NCBI GenBank assembly: GCA_025963735.1
Contig: JAOQAF010000020.1
Location: forward strand, 1-46,956
Length of the DNA stretch: 46,956 nt
Direction of reading: 5' to 3'
Origin: Bacteroidota bacterium
Lineage (GTDB): Bacteria > Bacteroidota > Bacteroidia > B-17B0 > Aurantibacillaceae
The notes beneath the pieces were generated by a model, which was not told where the DNA came from, searched no databases, and was given only the letters and a program-made list of their open reading frames with translations. This document shows positions 3,579 to 32,164 of the stretch, piece by piece. A program made the position numbers and the translations under genes. Position 1 is the first letter of the stretch. Each line of letters begins with the position of its first letter.

Positions 3579-4631
3579 TTATACAGGATATGCCGCATCC
3601 AGCTTTTTTAAACGTTGAACATGTTTATTAGCCTCTCTGAAAAAATGCCAGCCTTGTTTTAAACCCCAGTAAGGAACTCCTTTATGATTACTTGCTTTCG
3701 AAATTTTATACAACATATTCCAATGATGTAATAGAATTGAACATGCTTGAAGAAGTGTGTTGCCATTACCATATACATGATGCGGCTCTCCTCCGCTTCC
3801 ATTGTATTCTAAAATTGTAAAATTTTTCCCGTGTTTTAAATCTTCAACCGATGTGCATTTAATATCGTAACGGCCATAATAAAAATCCTTTGAGTAATTG
3901 CTTAACTGGTCAAATACCTGCAAAAGCTGTTCATCCTTTTCACTTTCCATACTAACAAGTTTGCCACCCCTGCTTAAATTCAGGGCGTGCGATAACTTAA
4001 ATGGCTTACCTTTTTCCAAAATTTCATTAAGTTTATCTTTATGCTTCAATTTCATTTCTTCAAGACGTAACCTTGCACGTGGAGACATTTCAATAAGTTG
4101 TAATACTGTTGATTTTCCATCGCCAATAACCTGAAGAGATTCTTTTTTTATAAAGCCAGTAATGACACCTTTTTTTTCGCCGGGAAATCTGTAATAAAAG
4201 GCACTTACTTCGAGAGGGTAATCAATAAACTCCTGTATAATATAATTAACGGGCATTGTTTCATGGTAGCGTTTAAGATCCGCAACATTCTCTATTTTGC
4301 GAAACATAAAACCCATTCTTCCAGTTTCAGGTTTAACAGCAGCCGGGTATTTAAAACCCTTAAGAAGGAAAAGATTTTCCACTTCGTTAAAAGGCGAATT
4401 ATTTTTAATAAATAAACTTTTAGGATAACTACCCGGGGGTAAATGTAAATACATATCTTTTTTGCTTACCCCATCAAATCCTCCAAAAACAAGCGCAGGA
4501 TTAGATGGCGTAAAAAACCATAGCGACCTTGATTTGATGCAATACCATACCCATGCAGGAATTATGGGAACATACTTTAAGCGCCAGTCCCATGCTTCCC
4601 AATGAGTAATAGTATACAGCATGTTTTTCAT
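3579..4631 (-). CDS. ATP-grasp fold ligase-like protein
   Basis: The 350-residue protein has the layout of an ATP-grasp enzyme related to carboxylate-amine ligases and D-Ala-D-Ala ligases. It shows 'YPAAVKPETGRMGFMFRKI' (nucleotide-binding lysine and glycine-rich loop) near residues 95-113, 'YIIQEFIDYPLEVSAFYYR' (hinge and acidic residues) near 130-148, and 'GRYDIKC' followed by 'FTILEYNGSGGEPHHVY' (metal-binding Glu/Asn) near 255-285. The N-terminus 'THWEAWDW' and the end 'LLHHWNMLYKIS' are typical of a Bacteroidota-specific subgroup. These enzymes join a carboxylate to an amine through an acyl phosphate. It is first in a unit with a GntA-like hydroxylase and a DUF1989 protein, which makes a small-molecule tailoring role plausible. 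A second ATG three codons in is also possible. Confidence 0.7.
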   Translation of the reverse strand: MKNMLYTITHWEAWDWRLKYVPIIPAWVWYCIKSRSLWFFTPSNPALVFGGFDGVSKKDMYLHLPPGSYPKSLFIKNNSPFNEVENLFLLKGFKYPAAVKPETGRMGFMFRKIENVADLKRYHETMPVNYIIQEFIDYPLEVSAFYYRFPGEKKGVITGFIKKESLQVIGDGKSTVLQLIEMSPRARLRLEEMKLKHKDKLNEILEKGKPFKLSHALNLSRGGKLVSMESEKDEQLLQVFDQLSNYSKDFYYGRYDIKCTSVEDLKHGKNFTILEYNGSGGEPHHVYGNGNTLLQACSILLHHWNMLYKISKASNHKGVPYWGLKQGWHFFREANKHVQRLKKLDAAYPV

Positions 4632-4792
4632 GGGTTTTAAGTAATCGATGATGTTAGATAGTGAGTCCCTAAAATTACAACGACCTTAAACTCACCCTGT
4701 TTTTATTCGTTGAATGAGGTATATGCATAGCTAAAAAAACATCCCAACCGGCTATCCTCTTTTTTTTTGTGAAGAAAAAATATGGATCAAAT

Positions 4793-4820
4793 AAAAAAGC
4801 CTTCCGGAATCCGGAAGGCT
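4793..4820 (-). terminator. Rho-independent terminator downstream of groEL
   Basis: A perfect 10-bp stem (AGCCTTCCGG / CCGGAAGGCT, 3-nt loop) at 4798-4820 is followed on the minus strand by six T residues. It would end minus-strand transcripts coming from groEL, about 250 nt past the groEL stop codon, after the tandem repeats. Confidence 0.75.
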
Positions 4821-22705: not shown

Positions 22706-25700
22706 ATGTTGTTGCAAAAAATTAAATGGATGGCTGTGGGCATTGCGCTTACGGCTTCAAGTGTATGGATATATAACCACAAAGACTCTTTCAGAAGTTT
22801 TGGCGGAAGTAATCAGAACAAAGGCATTGTTAACCGCATTAATCCCGAGTTTGCTTCTTACATCTCGGCATTCACTACAGGTTATATACCAACGGGGTCA
22901 ACTATAAAAATTAAATTTGCCAGCGAATTGTCTGGGGCAACCGAATTAAACAAACCATTAGCCGAACACTATTTTTCATTTTCGCCTTCCATTGATGGAG
23001 AGGTTTACTGGAAAGATGCTCAAACAATAGAATTTAAACCCAAAGAGCGTTTAAAACCAGGACAGATCTATAAGGCTGTTTTTAATTTAAATAAGTTAAC
23101 GGAAGTAAAAAAAGAACTTCAGGAATTTGAATTTAGCTTTCAGGCCATAAAGCAATCCATACAGCTGGAAACCGGCGAACTTAAAAGTTACAGCAACAAC
23201 GACTTTAATTTTTATAGTTTATCCGGAAGTATTTCTTCGGCCGATTTTATTAAGTCAGATGACATTGAAAAAACCTTCAGATCAAAACTTGATAATAAAA
23301 TCCTTTCGGTTAAATGGATGCACAATGAAAAAGGCACAGAACATAAATTTTTAATTGATAGCATTGAACGATCCTTATCTCCATCAAAATTAACCATCGA
23401 TTGCAACACAAGCGCAATCAGTCTCTCCTATACCTCATCCAAATCATTTACTATACCTGCAAAAGCAATTTTTCAATTGTTAGGTACAAAAGCCGACAGC
23501 GATAATGAACAATTTGTTCAACTTTCGTTTTCAAATCCCATTGATCAGAACCAAAGTCTTGAAGGGCTGATAACTCTTACCAAAGCCGACAATACCAACA
23601 CACAAAATGATTATAATGAAACCAATAATAAATCCGATGATGTAAAATATGTTGTTAATAATAATCAGGTCCTCATTTATCCAAATAAACTGAAGGCCGG
23701 GTCATACCTCCTCACGGTAACAGCGGCGGTAAAGGACACTAAAGGACAGACGCTTGGCTCCGAATCAAAACACAGCATTGTTTTTAATGAAGTAAAACCC
23801 GCTATCCGTTTTGTAGGAGAAGGAAGTATTCTGCCTTCAACTGGTGGTTTAAATATTCCTTTTGAAACCGTAAACCTGCGTGCGGTTGATATTAAAATTA
23901 TAAAAGTTTACGAAAATAATGTTCTGCAGTTCCTTCAAAACAATGATTTAAACGGAAGCAGTCAATTAGCGCAGGTTGGCAAAAAAGTAGTTGAGAAGCG
24001 GCTGAACCTTGGTATTACCAATCCGGCTGATTTCGGAGTCTGGAAAAAATCATCCATCGATCTTTCTGATTTAATAAAAGCTGAACCCGGAGCCATTTAT
24101 AAAATTTATCTCGGCATGAAAAAATCTTATTCAACCTATCCTTGTTTGGGAAACAGTGATAATGAAAAATTTGAGATGGAGGAAATAACGGAAGCCAAAG
24201 AGGAAGAGGTTTCTTTTTATGGTTATTATTATGAGGATGAGTATGGCAGTAATTATTATGAAGAAGGTGATGGCGATGAAGATTATAATTGGAACGAACG
24301 TGATAACCCCTGCAAGTCATACTTCTACAAACAATATGAACGTACTGTTTCAAAAAGCATTCTGGCCTCTGACCTTGGTTTAACCTTTAAAAAAGGTAGC
24401 GACGGAAGTTATTTTGCAGTGGTTAATGATCTGGTTACAACCAAACCAATGAGTGATGTAACGATTGACTTATACGATTACCAGAAACAACTTATTCAAA
24501 CCGCACAAACAAATAAAGACGGACAAGTATTTATAACCCCGGCACAACGCCCATATTTTGTAGTTGCAAAAAAAGATAAGCAACGGGCTTATCTGAGACT
24601 CGATGATGGCACCACATTATCATTGAGTATGTATGATGTTAACGGCGAGGCAATACACAAGGGCCTGAAAGGCTTTATTTATGGTGAACGCGGCGTATGG
24701 CGACCCGGAGACAGCATTTTCCTTAATTTTATTTTAGAAGACAAGCAAGGCTCTATTCCTGCCAACCATCCTGTGGTTTTTGCATTAAGCAATCCTCAGG
24801 GTCAGTTATATAAACGCCAATTGAGCACCAAAAGTGTAAATGGCTTTTATAATTTTTCCACTCTAACCGATAAGAATGTTCCAACCGGCTTATGGAACGT
24901 AGAAGTAAAAGCCGGCGCCGTTAAATTTTCCAAAAGCATCCGCGTTGAAGCAATTATGCCTAACCGCCTAAAGATTGAAGTAAATGTTGGAGATAATAAA
25001 CTGATTGCAGGAAGCAAACCTGCCAATGTAAGTCTGCATACGGCCTGGTTAACAGGAGCTGTGGCACACGGGCTGGCCGCTAACATGGGCGTTACTTTCA
25101 GCAGTGCCGGAACTTCTTTCGATAAATTTAAAGGGTATAATTTTGATGATAACACCAACCGTTTCGAATCACAAAACCTCACCTTGTTTGACGGAAACGT
25201 GGATGACAACGGAAATACAAATTTTTCAATTACTCCCGATCTTTTGAAAAATGCACCCGGTTTTCTGAAAGCTAATTTTACCACACGGGTGTTTGAACAG
25301 GGCGGTGCATTTAGTATCGATCGTTTTTCTATGCCGTATTCGCCTTATAATTTTTATTGCGGAATCAGACTTCCGCAGGGCGAAAAAAATTCAGGAATAC
25401 TTTATACCGGTAAAGACCATTATATTGACATTGCTACAGCAGATTTTAAAGGAAACGGGGTATCAAGGTCTAATTTAAGATTTGAACTTTACAAGCTTGA
25501 ATGGCGCTGGTGGTGGGATCAATATAACAATGATATTGCTAATTATGCTACTGATGATTATCACAAAGCTGTGCAGGTAGAAAGTTTTGCATCAAAAAAT
25601 GGCACTGCAAAAATTAAGGTAAATATTAAAGAAAATCAATGGGGCAGATATTTAATCCGCGTTGTAGATCTGGATGGCGGGCATGTTTCCACGGCTATTA

Positions 25701-28393
25701 CCTATTTTGACTGGTCAAACTGGATGGACCGTGATGGGGGAAGCAATAATAAAATTATATCCAACATGCTTCATTTTACAACAGATAAAACAGCTTACAA
25801 AACAAATGAAGAAGTAGTTGTTACAATACCTTCTCCGCAAAATGGACGGGCTCTGGTTACGATAGAAAATGGTAGCCGGGTTTTGGAAGCACATTGGCTG
25901 GAAACAGAAAAAGGAAGCACTCTATTTAAATTTAAGGTAACACCGCAAATGGCGCCAAACGTATATGTACATGTGTCGCTTCTGCAACCGCATTCCAGAA
26001 CTAATGATCTTCCCATTCGCTTGTATGGAGTTGTTCCCATAAATATCGATGATCCGGAAACACATTTAAAACCTGTAATCAGTATGCCGGCTGTGTTGAT
26101 GCCTGAGAAAAAAGTAGACATAACGGTTAGCGAAGAGAACCAGAAAGAAATGGCCTTTACGTTAGCTGTTGTGGATGAAGGTTTATTGGATATTACACGT
26201 TTTAAAACCCCTAATCCCTGGAGTTCTTTTTATTCTAAGGAAGCTATTGGTATAAAAACGTGGGATGTGTATGACAATGTTATAGGCGCATTTGGCACCG
26301 AACTGGAACGTGTTTTAAGTATTGGTGGAGACGGAAGCGACATGGATAAAGAAGACGGTGCAAAGGCGAACCGCTTTAAACCAATGGTGAGATTTTTTGG
26401 TCCGTTTAATTTAAAGAAAGGTGAAAAGAAAACCATTTCATTTCAAATGCCAATGTATGTAGGGTCGGTGCGTACCATGGTAATAGCAGGAAATAAGGGA
26501 GCTTACGGCGTTGCAGAAAAAACCACACCTGTTAAAGCACCATTAATGCTGCTCGGAACATTGCCACGTGTTTTAAGCGTAACTGAAGAAGTAAAACTGC
26601 CTGTGACCATTTTTGGAGGAGATAAAAACATTGGAAGAACAGATATTAAACTTGAAGTGAACGGACTACTTCAAACAATCGGACAAACAGTAAAAAGTGT
26701 GAACATTGGAAAGAACGATGAAAAAATAGTGGTGTTTGATCTCATGGTAAAAAACATAACCGGTATTGGGAAAGCAAAGATTACGGCTACCGGTGGTGGC
26801 TTTACGGCCATTTATGAAATTGAGCTTGATGTAAGAAATCCTAATCCTTATCAGACAAGTACCAAAGACTTATTTGTTGATGCCGGAAAAGAATTAAATA
26901 AAAGCATTTCTGCAACCGGATTACCCGGCACCAACAGCGGCGTACTTGAACTTTCAACCATTCCTCCGGTTAATCTGGATGCCAGGTTGCATTACCTGAT
27001 CTCATACCCTCATGGATGTGTTGAACAAATAACATCACAAACCTTTGCGCAATTATATTTGAACGACATCATGGATCTTACCTCAGAAAAGAAAACTGAA
27101 ATAGAAAAAAATATAAAAGGTGGTATCAGCGAACTCCAGAAATTTCAGATTGCAAACGGGGGTATGAGTTACTGGCCGGGCACGAACGAAGCAAACGACT
27201 GGGGCACCAGCTATGCGGGACACTTCATGATACTTGCAGAGAAAAAAGGATATACACTCCCATCAGGATTTAAAAAGAAATGGATCTCTTATCAGCAAAA
27301 TCTCGCGTCAAATTTTGAGGTGAACAAAAACTCCTCATACAACAATGACGTATTGCAGGCCTACAGACTATATGCTTTATCCTTGTCAGGGCAACCCGTA
27401 TTAAGTGCCATGAATCGTTTACGCGAATTCAATAATTTATCTAATCAGGCGCGTTGGTTACTGGCAGCGGCTTATGCTCAGATAAGCCAGCTGGATGAGG
27501 CGGAAAAACTTATTTCAAAAGCATCGGTTAATGTAAATCCTTATACCATTAATTATTATACCTACGGTTCTTCTGAACGTGATGAATCTCTTATTCTTGA
27601 AATTTTATGTCTGTTGAATAAAAAAACGCAGGCCTTCAATCAACTCAAAAAGGTTTCAGGCTATCTTTCCTCGAACAGATATTTAAGCACACAATCAACA
27701 GCATTTGGATTAATATCTGTGGCCACCTTTATAAAAAAATATGGCGATGCTTCTGCGATGCAGGGCGTTGTTACTTTAAACGGTAAAGAAATTAAATTAA
27801 AAGGAAATTCTTCCCTGATTCAAATTCCCGTTAATTTTAAAAGCGGCACAGAAGGTAACTTTAGTATAAAAAACAATGGCCGGGGGATTCTTTATGTGCG
27901 AGTAATAACGCGGGGCAAGCCTCCTATAGGATCTGAACAGGAAGGAAATGAAAACATTAGCATGGACGTGGCATATAAGGAAATGAACGGACAGCCACTT
28001 TCGGTAAATGAACTAACGCAGGGGAAAGATTTTATGATGCAGGTAACTGTTAGAAATTCAGGACTGGCCGGAGAATTACAGAACATTGCCTTAAGCACTT
28101 ATATTCCTTCCGGATGGGAGATTCACAATTCGCGAATGGATGATGACGGCGCCGCGAAGGCGACAAATTACACTTATCAGGACATTAAGGATGACAAAGT
28201 GCTAACGTATTTCGACCTTGGGAGAACGGAAGCAAAAACATTTAATATTATTTTGAATGCCGCCTATGAAGGAAAATATTATTTACCGGCTGTAAATACT
28301 GAAGCCATGTACGATAATACTGTGTTTGCGCGAAATAAAGGGCAGTGGATAAAGGTTGTGAAAAAAGGGAACAGTGGCGTGGCTGCAAAATAA
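22706..28393 (+). CDS. Bacterial alpha-2-macroglobulin with thioester motif
   Basis: This periplasmic protease trap is 1895 residues, within the bacterial A2M range. The N-terminus 'WMAVGIALTASSVWIY' is a membrane anchor with no lipobox, unlike many family members. MG domains follow ('GFIYGERGVWRPGDSIFLNF' is the classic MG2-like start near 658). The thioester motif 'GCVEQ' has Cys1438 and Gln1441. The alpha-helical TED domain contains 'QKFQIANGGMSYWPGTNEANDWGTSY'. Between about 490 and 535 lies a highly acidic, Tyr-rich insert. The usual partner pbpC follows at 29777, now separated by a lipoprotein gene and a RAYT insertion. The pairing suggests coordination of protease defence with cell-wall repair. 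Confidence 0.96.
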   Translation: MLLQKIKWMAVGIALTASSVWIYNHKDSFRSFGGSNQNKGIVNRINPEFASYISAFTTGYIPTGSTIKIKFASELSGATELNKPLAEHYFSFSPSIDGEVYWKDAQTIEFKPKERLKPGQIYKAVFNLNKLTEVKKELQEFEFSFQAIKQSIQLETGELKSYSNNDFNFYSLSGSISSADFIKSDDIEKTFRSKLDNKILSVKWMHNEKGTEHKFLIDSIERSLSPSKLTIDCNTSAISLSYTSSKSFTIPAKAIFQLLGTKADSDNEQFVQLSFSNPIDQNQSLEGLITLTKADNTNTQNDYNETNNKSDDVKYVVNNNQVLIYPNKLKAGSYLLTVTAAVKDTKGQTLGSESKHSIVFNEVKPAIRFVGEGSILPSTGGLNIPFETVNLRAVDIKIIKVYENNVLQFLQNNDLNGSSQLAQVGKKVVEKRLNLGITNPADFGVWKKSSIDLSDLIKAEPGAIYKIYLGMKKSYSTYPCLGNSDNEKFEMEEITEAKEEEVSFYGYYYEDEYGSNYYEEGDGDEDYNWNERDNPCKSYFYKQYERTVSKSILASDLGLTFKKGSDGSYFAVVNDLVTTKPMSDVTIDLYDYQKQLIQTAQTNKDGQVFITPAQRPYFVVAKKDKQRAYLRLDDGTTLSLSMYDVNGEAIHKGLKGFIYGERGVWRPGDSIFLNFILEDKQGSIPANHPVVFALSNPQGQLYKRQLSTKSVNGFYNFSTLTDKNVPTGLWNVEVKAGAVKFSKSIRVEAIMPNRLKIEVNVGDNKLIAGSKPANVSLHTAWLTGAVAHGLAANMGVTFSSAGTSFDKFKGYNFDDNTNRFESQNLTLFDGNVDDNGNTNFSITPDLLKNAPGFLKANFTTRVFEQGGAFSIDRFSMPYSPYNFYCGIRLPQGEKNSGILYTGKDHYIDIATADFKGNGVSRSNLRFELYKLEWRWWWDQYNNDIANYATDDYHKAVQVESFASKNGTAKIKVNIKENQWGRYLIRVVDLDGGHVSTAITYFDWSNWMDRDGGSNNKIISNMLHFTTDKTAYKTNEEVVVTIPSPQNGRALVTIENGSRVLEAHWLETEKGSTLFKFKVTPQMAPNVYVHVSLLQPHSRTNDLPIRLYGVVPINIDDPETHLKPVISMPAVLMPEKKVDITVSEENQKEMAFTLAVVDEGLLDITRFKTPNPWSSFYSKEAIGIKTWDVYDNVIGAFGTELERVLSIGGDGSDMDKEDGAKANRFKPMVRFFGPFNLKKGEKKTISFQMPMYVGSVRTMVIAGNKGAYGVAEKTTPVKAPLMLLGTLPRVLSVTEEVKLPVTIFGGDKNIGRTDIKLEVNGLLQTIGQTVKSVNIGKNDEKIVVFDLMVKNITGIGKAKITATGGGFTAIYEIELDVRNPNPYQTSTKDLFVDAGKELNKSISATGLPGTNSGVLELSTIPPVNLDARLHYLISYPHGCVEQITSQTFAQLYLNDIMDLTSEKKTEIEKNIKGGISELQKFQIANGGMSYWPGTNEANDWGTSYAGHFMILAEKKGYTLPSGFKKKWISYQQNLASNFEVNKNSSYNNDVLQAYRLYALSLSGQPVLSAMNRLREFNNLSNQARWLLAAAYAQISQLDEAEKLISKASVNVNPYTINYYTYGSSERDESLILEILCLLNKKTQAFNQLKKVSGYLSSNRYLSTQSTAFGLISVATFIKKYGDASAMQGVVTLNGKEIKLKGNSSLIQIPVNFKSGTEGNFSIKNNGRGILYVRVITRGKPPIGSEQEGNENISMDVAYKEMNGQPLSVNELTQGKDFMMQVTVRNSGLAGELQNIALSTYIPSGWEIHNSRMDDDGAAKATNYTYQDIKDDKVLTYFDLGRTEAKTFNIILNAAYEGKYYLPAVNTEAMYDNTVFARNKGQWIKVVKKGNSGVAAK

Positions 28394-28448: not shown

Positions 28449-29039
28449 ATGAAAAAAATTATTTTACTCTTTCTGGCCTGCCTTTTTCTATCGCTGATTT
28501 CTTCCTGTGCCATACATCGAAAATTCCCATTTATCTGTTTTAAAAAAGAATGTGTACTGGGTCAGTTAGGTTATTATTCTGCCCGTGAATCTTTTAAACG
28601 AGCTAAAATAAATGCCTCGGTAAGAAAACATAAACGTATAGTAAAACGAAATGTAAGACGAGGAAGGAAAGGATTAGACCCGCCGTATGACCTTGCCAAA
28701 GAAAAAAAACAGGCGGATTCACTTACATATCAGGGAGGATTTGCAGGAATCTGTAAAGAAATAAAAATGGTATTCTTGGAATCCACTAAGCGAGATAGTG
28801 TATTGATCACTTACAAATTTGAACAAAAAGACATTTCACCTGAAGGGAAAAAAATAATTAAAGAACTGGTTGATAAGATCGGACCTCATTCTTTTACTGG
28901 AATTACCATCTTTAATTGCCACAAAAAGAGTGTCCTTAGCGAGTATGAAGTAGTATGGATGGATGAAAGGGTTAGAAAAATAAAAAAATACCTGAAAAGC
29001 ATTGGCATAGAAAACCTCAAAGTATTTGTGGATGAGTAA
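28449..29039 (+). CDS. Putative lipoprotein with OmpA-like C-terminal part
   Basis: The 196-residue protein has a lipoprotein signal 'LFLSLISSC' with Cys at residue 20. A basic middle ('RKHKRIVKRNVRRGRKG') follows. The C-terminal part 'YKFEQKDISPEGKKIIKELVDKIG' resembles OmpA/peptidoglycan-binding domains but is short and lacks the usual 'GHTD' motif, so assignment is tentative. It lies 55 nt after the A2M gene. Its 3' end (from 28978) is duplicated 744 bp downstream, where it forms the leader of pbpC. In the ancestor its stop probably overlapped the pbpC start. Confidence 0.65.
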   Translation: MKKIILLFLACLFLSLISSCAIHRKFPFICFKKECVLGQLGYYSARESFKRAKINASVRKHKRIVKRNVRRGRKGLDPPYDLAKEKKQADSLTYQGGFAGICKEIKMVFLESTKRDSVLITYKFEQKDISPEGKKIIKELVDKIGPHSFTGITIFNCHKKSVLSEYEVVWMDERVRKIKKYLKSIGIENLKVFVDE

Positions 29040-29041
29040 CC
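28978..29041 (+). repeat. Left copy of the 64-bp duplication flanking the RAYT element
   Basis: This 64-bp segment is the end of the lipoprotein gene plus its stop (ends GATGAGTAACC). It recurs at 29722-29786 with one extra T and about five substitutions. GGCATAGAAAACCTCAAAGT is identical in both. Confidence 0.9.
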
Positions 29042-29067
29042 CGGGTCTATCCATATTAAAAAAAGGG

Positions 29068-29095
29068 CCCTTGTTGGTGTTCTCACCAACAAGGG
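29068..29095. repeat. Left REP-like hairpin
   Basis: CCCTTGTTGGTG / CACCAACAAGGG, a perfect 12-bp stem with a TTCT loop, 40 nt upstream of the transposase start. Without a T-run it is unlikely to be an intrinsic terminator of the lipoprotein gene, though it may protect its mRNA. Confidence 0.85.
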
Positions 29096-29134
29096 TGTTT
29101 ACGTTAGCAACCTCAGACTAATTATATTTGTTTA

Positions 29135-29656
29135 ATGAATTCCAAACTATATTTTAGCACATACACTAATTTAAACTGGATCAGTATTCTTAATGACGAG
29201 GAATTTAAAGACATTATAATTCGAAGCCTTCAATTTCTGGTTACTGAAAAGAGAATTGTATTGTATGCCTTTGTTATTATGCCAAACCATATGCATTTAT
29301 TGTGGTTAATTAGGGAAGACTATATTTTGAAAAATGTACAAAGAGATTTTCTGAAGTATACCGCTCAACAAATAAGATTTAAGCTCATTGAAACACAAAA
29401 TTCATTGATTGACTCTTTGACCGTCAATGCAAAAGACAGAAAGTTACAAATTTGGGAAAGAAATGGGCTTTCATTTCAGCTTATAAATAAAGAAACTATC
29501 TTCCAAAAATTTAAATACATTCATATGAATCCAATTAAAGAGAAATGGAGCCTGGCTAGTTCGCCAGAAGAATATTTTTATTCGAGTGCAAGCTATTATA
29601 AAACTGAAGTGGATAATTTTAAAATGCTAACACATATTAATGAACTATTATTCTAA
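29135..29656 (+). CDS. REP-associated tyrosine transposase (Y1, IS200-like)
   Basis: The 173-residue protein belongs to the TnpA/RAYT family of HUH single-strand transposases. 'AFVIMPNHMHLLWLI' near residues 48-62 holds the His-x-His metal site. 'FLKYTAQQI' near 92-100 contains a candidate catalytic Tyr. 'KFKYIHMNPIKEKWSLASSPEEYFYSSASYY' is the typical RAYT end. It appears intact. RAYTs copy or move short palindromic REP sequences and are usually single copy and vertically kept. It is flanked by two REP-like hairpins and by a duplicated 64-bp host segment. Confidence 0.9.
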   Translation: MNSKLYFSTYTNLNWISILNDEEFKDIIIRSLQFLVTEKRIVLYAFVIMPNHMHLLWLIREDYILKNVQRDFLKYTAQQIRFKLIETQNSLIDSLTVNAKDRKLQIWERNGLSFQLINKETIFQKFKYIHMNPIKEKWSLASSPEEYFYSSASYYKTEVDNFKMLTHINELLF

Positions 29657-29688
29657 AGTCACCATAAATTCAGGCATACTTAAAATTT

Positions 29689-29714
29689 CCTTGTTTGTGA
29701 AAACACCAACAAGG
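29689..29714. repeat. Right REP-like hairpin
   Basis: CCTTGTTTGTG / CACCAACAAGG with an AAAA loop, an 11-bp stem with one mismatch, 32 nt after the transposase stop. It has the same arms as the left hairpin. Confidence 0.8.
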
Positions 29715-29721
29715 GCGTTCC

Positions 29722-29786
29722 AAATAAAAAAATCCCTGAAAGCCCTTGGCATAGAAAACCTCAAAGTATTTTGTGGATGAATAACC
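29722..29786 (+). repeat. Right copy of the duplicated 64-bp segment, pbpC leader
   Basis: This copy matches 28978-29041 with one extra T and about five substitutions. The GGATGAATAACC end supplies the pbpC ATG at 29777. The extra T breaks the lipoprotein frame, but here it only has to serve as leader. Confidence 0.9.
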
Positions 29787-32164
29787 AGTTCCAGTCAATA
29801 TTTAAAAAATTTAGATTTGTATTAAACAGGAATAAAATAAAATTTTCTATTCTTTTAATTATAGCAGTCCTTTACTGTGCATGGTTGCCTTCAAAATTAT
29901 TTATTGTTCCATACAGCACCGTTCTCGTTGACAGTAACAATAACCTTCTGGCGGCTCAAATAGCTTCCGACGGCCAGTGGCGCTTCCCCGAAAGTGATAG
30001 CGTACCTGTAAAGTTCAGGTATTGCATCACCACTTTCGAAGACGAGTATTTTTATTACCATCCCGGATTCAATCCTGTGTCGGTCTTTAAATCCATAAAA
30101 GAAAATTTTGTCGCCGGAAAGGTAAGAAGGGGTGGAAGTACCATAACCATGCAGGTGGCAAGGATGATGGGAAATAAACCATCACGCACTTACCTGCACA
30201 AATTACTTGAAATATTACTGGCTACGCGAATCGAATGCTCTTACAAAAAATCTTCTATTTTAAACATCTACGCCAGTAATGCACCTTTTGGAAGTAATGT
30301 CGTTGGCCTGCAGGCAGCATCATGGCGGTATTTTGGCAGAGGCCCTGAAAAACTCAGCTGGGCAGAAAATGCTTTACTCGCAGTACTTCCCAATGCTCCA
30401 TCTTTAATTTATCCCGGTAAAAATCACGAAAAATTAATTGCCAAACGTAACCGGCTTTTAAAAAAACTTTATCAAAAAAATATTATTGATAAATCAACAT
30501 ATAATTTATCCCTTAATGAAGAACTTCCATTAAAGCCCTGTTCTCTTCCACAACTCGCCCCTCACCTGCTGGCAAGAGCTGTTCAGGAACACGGACCGGG
30601 TCAGTTATTCAAAAGCACCATCAATGCTAATCTTCAGATCCAGACTGATCAATTATTAAACAAACACATCCAGGGAATTTCTGCCAATCAGATCTTTAAC
30701 GCCTGCGTTGTAATTTCAGAAACCGCAACAGGCAATGTTTTGGCTTATATCGGTAATTCGTTTTCCCAAAAAAACGAACATCAAAATTACGTTGACATTA
30801 TTACTGCGCCAAGAAGTACAGGCAGTATTTTAAAACCTTTTTTATATGCCTTCATGTTAAACGAAGGAAAAATACTTCCTGCAAGTTTAATTGAAGATGT
30901 TCCCATTCAGATAGGTTCATACGGACCAAAAAATTTCAGTCTTTCTTATGATGGTCTGGTGCCAGCCAATCAGGCCATAGCGCGTTCATTAAATGTACCA
31001 GCGGTTAAAATGCTTATAGATTACGGGCCCGCACGTTTTCATTACCGGCTTAAACAATTAGGTTTTAAAACTTTCACCAAAAATACGCAGCACTACGGCT
31101 TATCTCTTATACTGGGCGGTGGCGAAGCAAGCTTGTGGGATGTAGCCTCGGCTTATTCCTCAATGGGGAGGGCACTTTTAAACTATTCCAATGCCAGATC
31201 AAAATACACTGCCGGAAATTATCGTCCTCTTAATTATTTATACAGCGCAGAGAAATCAAAACAAAATGGCTCTGAAAAAACTGACTTACTCAACGCTTCC
31301 AGTATCTGGTTCACCTTAAATGCAATGACAGAATTATTACGACCCCAGGATTATGTTGGGTGGATGCAGTTTGCAGTAAAAAACCGCATAGCCTGGAAAA
31401 CCGGAACCAGCTTCGGTTTCAGAGATGCATGGGCGGTTGGATTGAACGATAAATATACAGTGGCCGTTTGGGTTGGTAATGCCAGCGGTGAAGGACGTCC
31501 TGAATTAACAGGTACGGGCATGGCTGCTCCCTTAATGTTTTCAGTGTTCAATCTGCTTTCAAAAAAAAGCTGGTTCACAAAACCAAACTCCGATATGTGT
31601 ATTGTAAAAGTGTGCAGACAAAGTGGGTCCCGGGCCTCTGATATTTGTCCGGATGCTGAACTAAAAGAGGTTCAGAGCTCAGGAAAAAAAGCACCGGTAT
31701 GCAGTTTTCATAAAATAATTCACTTGGATCAGAGCGGGACATATCGTGTTAACAGCAACTGCTATGGCGTAGCGCAAATGCGGCACCTTCCATGGTTCGT
31801 TGTCTCGCCCGTTCAGGAATACTTTTTTAAACAACGAAGTTTTTTTTATAAATCATTACCTGAATTTTTGCCGGGATGCTCCTCAGAATCTCCATTTCAT
31901 CAGCTTGAAATTATTTACCCCCGATCCGATTTTAAAATTTATATTCCCATTGACGAAAGCGGAAAACGCAGCAAATGCATATTTAAGGCGGCACATAAAA
32001 ATACCGCAGCTATTTTATACTGGTACCTTGATGGTGAATATTTAGGAAGCACCCAAAAGTATCATCAGCTCTCCGTTGTCCCGAAAAAGGGAAGACACCA
32101 ATTATCCATCACCGATAACTCAGGTGAAACAGCGGGTTGCAATTTTGAAACAATTGATAAATAA
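29777..32164 (+). CDS. pbpC: Penicillin-binding protein 1C
   Basis: A bifunctional peptidoglycan synthase of the inner membrane. Starting at ATG 29777 it has 795 residues; an in-frame TTG two codons earlier is less likely. A membrane anchor ('FSILLIIAVLYCAWLP') is followed by the glycosyltransferase domain: 'TTFEDEYFYYHPGF' (catalytic Glu) and 'RRGGSTITMQVARMM'. The transpeptidase has 'STGSILKPF' (Ser-x-x-Lys), 'ARSLNVPAVK' (Ser-x-Asn) and 'WKTGTSFGFRDAWAVG' (KTG). A C-terminal beta domain typical of PBP1C follows, from about residue 600. It is the usual neighbour of A2M. Its leader is the duplicated segment left by the RAYT insertion. Confidence 0.95.
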   Translation: MNNQFQSIFKKFRFVLNRNKIKFSILLIIAVLYCAWLPSKLFIVPYSTVLVDSNNNLLAAQIASDGQWRFPESDSVPVKFRYCITTFEDEYFYYHPGFNPVSVFKSIKENFVAGKVRRGGSTITMQVARMMGNKPSRTYLHKLLEILLATRIECSYKKSSILNIYASNAPFGSNVVGLQAASWRYFGRGPEKLSWAENALLAVLPNAPSLIYPGKNHEKLIAKRNRLLKKLYQKNIIDKSTYNLSLNEELPLKPCSLPQLAPHLLARAVQEHGPGQLFKSTINANLQIQTDQLLNKHIQGISANQIFNACVVISETATGNVLAYIGNSFSQKNEHQNYVDIITAPRSTGSILKPFLYAFMLNEGKILPASLIEDVPIQIGSYGPKNFSLSYDGLVPANQAIARSLNVPAVKMLIDYGPARFHYRLKQLGFKTFTKNTQHYGLSLILGGGEASLWDVASAYSSMGRALLNYSNARSKYTAGNYRPLNYLYSAEKSKQNGSEKTDLLNASSIWFTLNAMTELLRPQDYVGWMQFAVKNRIAWKTGTSFGFRDAWAVGLNDKYTVAVWVGNASGEGRPELTGTGMAAPLMFSVFNLLSKKSWFTKPNSDMCIVKVCRQSGSRASDICPDAELKEVQSSGKKAPVCSFHKIIHLDQSGTYRVNSNCYGVAQMRHLPWFVVSPVQEYFFKQRSFFYKSLPEFLPGCSSESPFHQLEIIYPRSDFKIYIPIDESGKRSKCIFKAAHKNTAAILYWYLDGEYLGSTQKYHQLSVVPKKGRHQLSITDNSGETAGCNFETIDK

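Follow-up and report, generated by a model that had tools for sequence, protein, structure and literature searches.

The window, i.e. the whole stretch of 46,956 nucleotides that was analysed, is an entire contig of a source genome assembled in 269 contigs. On its plus strand, genes for an alpha-2-macroglobulin, a lipoprotein-like protein, a RAYT and PbpC follow one another in this order. The features of the locus are the following:

22706..28393, plus strand: alpha-2-macroglobulin-like gene, the upstream neighbour (Pfam A2M/MG domains)
28449..29039, plus strand: lipoprotein-like gene, 196 amino acids, intact open reading frame; the final 62 bp lie inside the left repeat copy
28978..29064, plus strand: left copy of the putatively duplicated target, with the lipoprotein 3' end, its stop codon and what would be the old pbpC start (alignment)
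29065..29721, plus strand: inserted element of 657 bp between both copies
29067..29096, plus strand: left terminal hairpin with a 13-bp stem and a 4-nt loop (DNA fold z -5.7)
29135..29656, plus strand: RAYT, an HUH/Y1 transposase of 173 amino acids with His52-x-His54 and Tyr128 (open reading frame, profile, alignment, fold)
29689..29714, plus strand: right terminal hairpin, an inverted copy of the left one (inverted repeat of 93% over 28 nt; fold z -2.7)
29722..29809, plus strand: right copy of the putatively duplicated target, holding the pbpC start in use and a lipoprotein remnant shifted out of frame (alignment)
29777..32164, plus strand: pbpC, penicillin-binding protein 1C (NCBIfam PBP_1c, 674 bits, cut-off 494), its ATG lying inside the right copy

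Both the lipoprotein gene and pbpC are intact at this locus, and the lipoprotein-like gene matched no Pfam or NCBIfam family. The initial annotation had recognised that the 3' end of the lipoprotein gene recurs before pbpC with the RAYT in between and that the right copy carries an extra T. Both observations were confirmed, while the reported duplication length of 64 bp turned out to be an underestimate. Local alignment of positions 28978-29064 with 29722-29809 yielded a direct repeat of 87/88 bp with 88% identity and a score of 52, the shuffle maximum being 12.5-14. The initial 50 bp of the repeat (28978-29027 and 29722-29771) are 92% identical. Past the lipoprotein stop the copies are less alike, and the pbpC part shows a much lower likeness than the lipoprotein part. 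Judged from the sequences, the likeness in this stretch is nevertheless unlikely to be due to chance, as an equally high score was reached by 23 out of 5000 shuffles and by 37 out of the 6562 24-mers of the window. The duplication would thereby extend some 11 codons into pbpC. Moreover, a 22-mer from the repeat occurs at just two places in the window when three mismatches are allowed (expected 0.01).

An overlap of the lipoprotein stop with the pbpC start (ATGARTAA), previously described for the right copy, is indeed there and is also present in the left copy. In the left copy it reads ATGAGTAA (29032-29039), with the TAA of the lipoprotein gene at 29037-29039, and the ATG at 29032 would be the old pbpC start. 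In the right copy it reads ATGAATAA (29777-29784) and begins with the ATG of pbpC at 29777; the extra T shifts the lipoprotein remnant by one. The presence of the 8-nt gene overlap in both copies means that the overlap is older than the duplication. Both copies have drifted since. At one codon the left copy has changed to Ile, with Leu kept in the right copy and in the relatives; at another, the right copy has changed to Ser, with Tyr kept in the left copy and in the relatives. The duplication is therefore not recent. The two copies differ by about 12%, which, together with the window being a whole contig of a 269-contig genome, might point to strain mixing, misassembly or a donor allele imported by recombination, any of which could have brought two junction versions together. 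However, numerous unrelated genomes show this arrangement as well, one of them assembled in about 20 contigs (G019, see below), and such an origin is very unlikely.

The hairpins are separated from the repeat edges by 3 nt and 7 nt. The 657 bp between the copies consist of an intact RAYT gene with a hairpin at each end, the two hairpins being in inverted orientation. The enzyme contains the motifs HMH at positions 52-54 and YIHMNP around the tyrosine at 128, and the residues H52, H54, Y128, N132 and P133 are invariant in an alignment of 22 homologues. The curated RAYT model NF047646 (NCBIfam) scored 75.8 bits over positions 9-146 of 146, slightly below its cut-off of 80, and Pfam Y1_Tnp scored 22.4, below its cut-off of 23. 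The AlphaFold model of the protein (pLDDT 87.7) has its best PDB match in 4er8 (E 1.1e-5), a structure of the E. coli RAYT in complex with a REP hairpin. The RAYT gene is present as a single copy in the source genome. With at most one mismatch, the hairpin was detected in 2 of 40 genomes of the genus and exclusively at RAYT loci, namely at both element ends in the source genome and in G004, which harbours a RAYT with the same hairpin. This confinement to RAYT loci indicates that the hairpins are the ends of the element and not, at one mismatch or fewer, a scattered REP family. The tetranucleotide GTAG/GTGG, looked for by eye, is absent from the foot of both hairpins.

Two looser look-alikes of the hairpin are located elsewhere in the source genome, on contigs C251 and C167. 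The one on C251 (L082; G000, contig C251, 1123-1147) is part of an array of TTCGACTACGCTCA-type short repeats and has a repeat of about 113 bp on either side. As this lone hairpin-like site sits inside the short-repeat array, its flanking repeats carry no weight as evidence. At the left end of the RAYT element in G004 (L056, about 1284-1475), several near-copies of the terminal hairpin stand in a row, as if multiplied.

Relatives of the lipoprotein were found in 12 of the 60 genomes searched. In two genomes of the same genus, G003 and G022, the lipoprotein gene is located between the alpha-2-macroglobulin gene and pbpC with no RAYT in between, and no RAYT match was found in either genome. Each of them has a single junction; thus, relatives that lack the element and still carry two copies were not seen here, and the earlier proposal that the RAYT insertion duplicated the junction and preserved both genes is supported. 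The ancestral overlap of both genes that had been postulated along with it stands for both copies in the window, but it is not universal: the junction of G003 (TAATG) overlaps by 1 nt, and that of G022 has no overlap, the nearest in-frame start being a TTG 6 nt past the stop. Both genomes are too diverged from the window for a base-by-base view of the repeat edges. The lipoprotein gene is found between the macroglobulin gene and pbpC in only some genomes of the genus (compared: window 28449-29039, L003, L004, L030, L032, L033); at L030, L032 and L033, which belong to other genomes of the genus, the macroglobulin gene directly precedes pbpC with no lipoprotein match between them.

Since the hairpins abut the repeats and relatives possess a single junction and no element, the reading of an insertion accompanied by a duplication holds. 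We consider it probable that the window element inserted as a hairpin-ended RAYT transposon that duplicated its target, the left copy completing the lipoprotein gene and the right copy completing pbpC.

Besides the window, one exact empty site was available (L061). In G019, a genome of the same genus, a RAYT element of 751 bp lies between 92-bp repeats, so that the left flank, 92 bp, the element, 92 bp and the right flank follow one another. The protein encoded next to it is 98% identical in G021, 96% in G006 and 88% in G034, and no RAYT match was found in these three genomes. In all of them, exactly one 92-bp copy joins the left flank to the right flank without a base gained or lost. In layout, G019 differs from these relatives solely by the element plus one extra copy of the target. 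The right 92-bp copy contains the final 39 nt of the neighbouring gene including its stop codon. The copies differ at 11 of 92 sites, which about equals their difference from G021, and the insertion is therefore about as old as that split. Alternatively, the element could have been lost from the three relatives by recombination between the repeats, which is possible but less economical. From their empty sites, both L061 and the window are taken as target duplications.

To place these two cases in a wider context, the 450-bp stretches upstream and downstream of RAYT genes were compared and a direct repeat was counted at a score of at least 25. Among loci with long flanks, 18 of 39 have such a repeat vs 0 of 156 control positions placed 1.9-2.8 kb away within these loci. 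For RAYT loci of named genomes, taken from the best 80 among the matches listed after six with short flanks were left out, the counts are 24 of 74 vs 2 of 261 shifted positions. Pooled, long flanking repeats are present at 42 of 113 Bacteroidota RAYT loci vs 2 of 417 shifted controls. In a wider set, which was picked from ranked lists and is not a random sample, 64 of 163 RAYT loci have a long repeat and 99 do not. The initial calls at L064 and L068 were short-locus artefacts and were redone, and L067 was set aside because its repeat reaches the RAYT open reading frame itself. Five plasmid records have a RAYT match, and two RAYT-bearing Bernardetia plasmids showed no long repeats.

Instead of target DNA, the repeats could also belong to the mobile unit itself or be REP/REPIN-like repeats of a dispersed kind. 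This is true of L153 and L122, at which RAYTs of family f45, another RAYT clade, lie between direct 200-bp REPIN-like repeats (3733-3936 and 4521-4724; 3758-3960 and 4581-4794), a flank type unlike that of the window. Both were rejected as target duplications; the corresponding sites of their relatives lack the 200-bp repeats, which look dispersed. Thus, two of the four repeat loci tested with relatives (L061, L137, L153 and L122) are dispersed repeats; at L137, the relatives hold just the gene-end part of the repeat. Moreover, 27 of the 64 repeats resemble element ends and 37 do not. Neither L153 nor L122 had been removed by the element-end filter. In view of these two loci, the raw repeat count was not accepted as a gauge of target duplication; the survey counts mix target duplications with dispersed repeats. 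For the window, however, such an origin is extremely unlikely: its repeat is host coding sequence that is also found in the element-free genomes G003 and G022, the 22-mer occurs there just twice, and the repeat of L061 is present in three element-free relatives.

A stricter anatomy, in which the inner repeat edge on both sides has a hairpin 2-8 nt away, was observed at 7 of the 163 RAYT loci, the window included. The repeat lengths are 48 bp (L056), 52 bp (L230), 87 bp (window), 92 bp (L061), 157 bp (L200), 165 bp (L208) and at least 219 bp (L164). It could be argued that the junction had been duplicated in tandem by slippage or unequal exchange before a RAYT inserted precisely between the two copies; no intermediate state was seen, and the window taken by itself would fit either order. 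This sequence of events is nonetheless unlikely, given that hairpins abut the repeat at seven loci with different targets, that such repeats occur at just 2 of 417 shifted positions and that G021, G006 and G034 have one copy and not a tandem pair.

The duplicated sequence varies by locus and comprises gene starts, gene ends, a terminator-like hairpin (the duplicated 40 bp of L055) and AT-rich spacer. At L156, whose RAYT is 65% identical to that of the window, the start of the 195-bp repeat precedes the ATG of a DUF2238 gene by 1 nt; this gene is complete (Pfam, 1-140 of 140), and its left copy breaks off at the hairpin. At L164, a gene for a 213-aa protein matching no Pfam family is whole on the right and truncated in the left copy, the repeat starting at the contig end. 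Genes are thus restored in the window, at L156 and at L164, as would be expected if the element carried a fixed gene end that restores its target like some integrase-borne islands. However, the targets differ between loci, and therefore no fixed gene end is carried by the element; we give this explanation next to no credence. tRNA genes were not detected in L231, L156, L061 and L001. A target duplication is likely at L156, L164 and the other strict loci, as suggested by their repeat structure.

The initial annotation had stated that the length of the duplication is beyond the expectation for an IS200/RAYT-type enzyme. This applies in comparison with true IS200 loci (over 125 bits), of which 0 of 5 have a long repeat, but not among Bacteroidota RAYTs, in which long duplications recur; further RAYT copies with long flanking duplications, which it had proposed to look for, were thus found. 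Of the 30 loci retrieved with the IS200 model, 27 were compared and three with short flanks were left out. Long direct repeats, which may include dispersed ones, flank 9 of the 22 weaker Y1 relatives; these are Bacteroidota loci with 54-274 aligned bp (L240, L241, L243, L249, L250, L255, L259, L261 and L263).

The best reading of these data is a hairpin-ended RAYT transposon that, on insertion, duplicates its target over a long and variable stretch of about 40-220 bp. In this reading, the insertion in the window is one example of a wider set of RAYT units in the phylum whose insertion is accompanied by a long target duplication. Y1 enzymes act by cutting and joining single strands, and much of their substrate comes from the lagging strand, an important source (PMC6006769). 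For a duplication of this size, from 48 bp to more than 200 bp, the two ends must have been joined to target points equally far apart and the gap filled. In the proposed mechanism, the HUH/tyrosine chemistry of the RAYT would join each element end to a target strand, with tens to about two hundred nucleotides between the two points; single-stranded DNA at a replication fork or gap would be the probable setting. The host polymerase would then fill in, the distance between the joins would set the length of the duplication, and a gene would stay whole if its start or its end falls within the duplicated stretch. We cautiously favour the general view that the Bacteroidota RAYT units are live transposons and not domesticated genes, and that they move by a route of their own, in which a HUH/Y1 enzyme attaches the hairpin ends to target strands at the replication fork, at points 40-220 nt from each other. 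The resulting target duplication, long and variable, would let insertions close to gene ends spare the genes.

A real insertion could also have been followed by host repair, e.g. strand-break repair off the sister chromosome, and it would then be this repair and not offset joining by the RAYT that generated the duplication. The widely varying repeat lengths at the strict loci (48 to at least 219 bp) would fit this possibility, and so would the edges, since visual inspection of the repeat ends at 13 loci revealed no shared target tetranucleotide. However, the narrow spacing of 2-8 nt between edges and hairpins argues for a defined reaction at the element ends, and we regard host repair as a tentative, less probable explanation than offset joining.

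The findings bear on how RAYTs act and whether they move. According to one paper, evidence for tnpAREP mobility is lacking (PMC8266576), and another describes RAYTs at novel chromosomal sites in some strains (PMC3686654). The empty site corresponding to the G019 locus adds a base-exact case, and the footprint would now be that of a unit that moves with its hairpins while a long piece of the target is copied. If true, this provides a simple account of tolerated insertions between tightly packed genes, and the long target duplication could serve as a signature for young insertions. No report of a long target duplication by RAYT or Y1 enzymes was found in the literature searched (including PMC2817692, PMC6006769, PMC8266576, PMC8049555, PMC3116915, PMC3686654 and PMC2266710), which was largely without subscription papers. 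The footprint is unlike the IS200/IS605 route and would need a joining step beyond the published models that were found.

The window unit resembles RAYT/TnpAREP systems in its HUH and Y..NP motifs, in the inverted hairpins on both sides and in a fold that is nearest to the E. coli RAYT 4er8, but it differs in that it evidently inserted with a long target duplication. Unlike canonical REP/RAYT systems, the source genome has no scattered REP hairpins at one mismatch or fewer, only the two element ends, and the hairpin feet are devoid of GTAG/GTGG, a motif named in PMC3686654. With IS200/IS605 elements (IS200, IS608, ISDra2), the unit shares a related HUH/Y1 enzyme acting on hairpin ends. However, these elements insert without a larger target duplication, according to PMC2817692, in contrast to the 87/88-bp repeat described here, and their tyrosine context is Y...Q, as given in PMC6006769, vs YIHMNP in the window RAYT. 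Long and variable direct repeats of 8-514 bp, depending on the copy, are also known from IS1549/IS1634 of the IS1634 family, for which no mechanistic model had been proposed at the time of PMC2266710. The IS1634 family comprises DDE transposases of an IS4-related group, whereas the enzyme of the window has an HUH/Y1 fold; thus, the window element is alike in outcome and not a member of this family.
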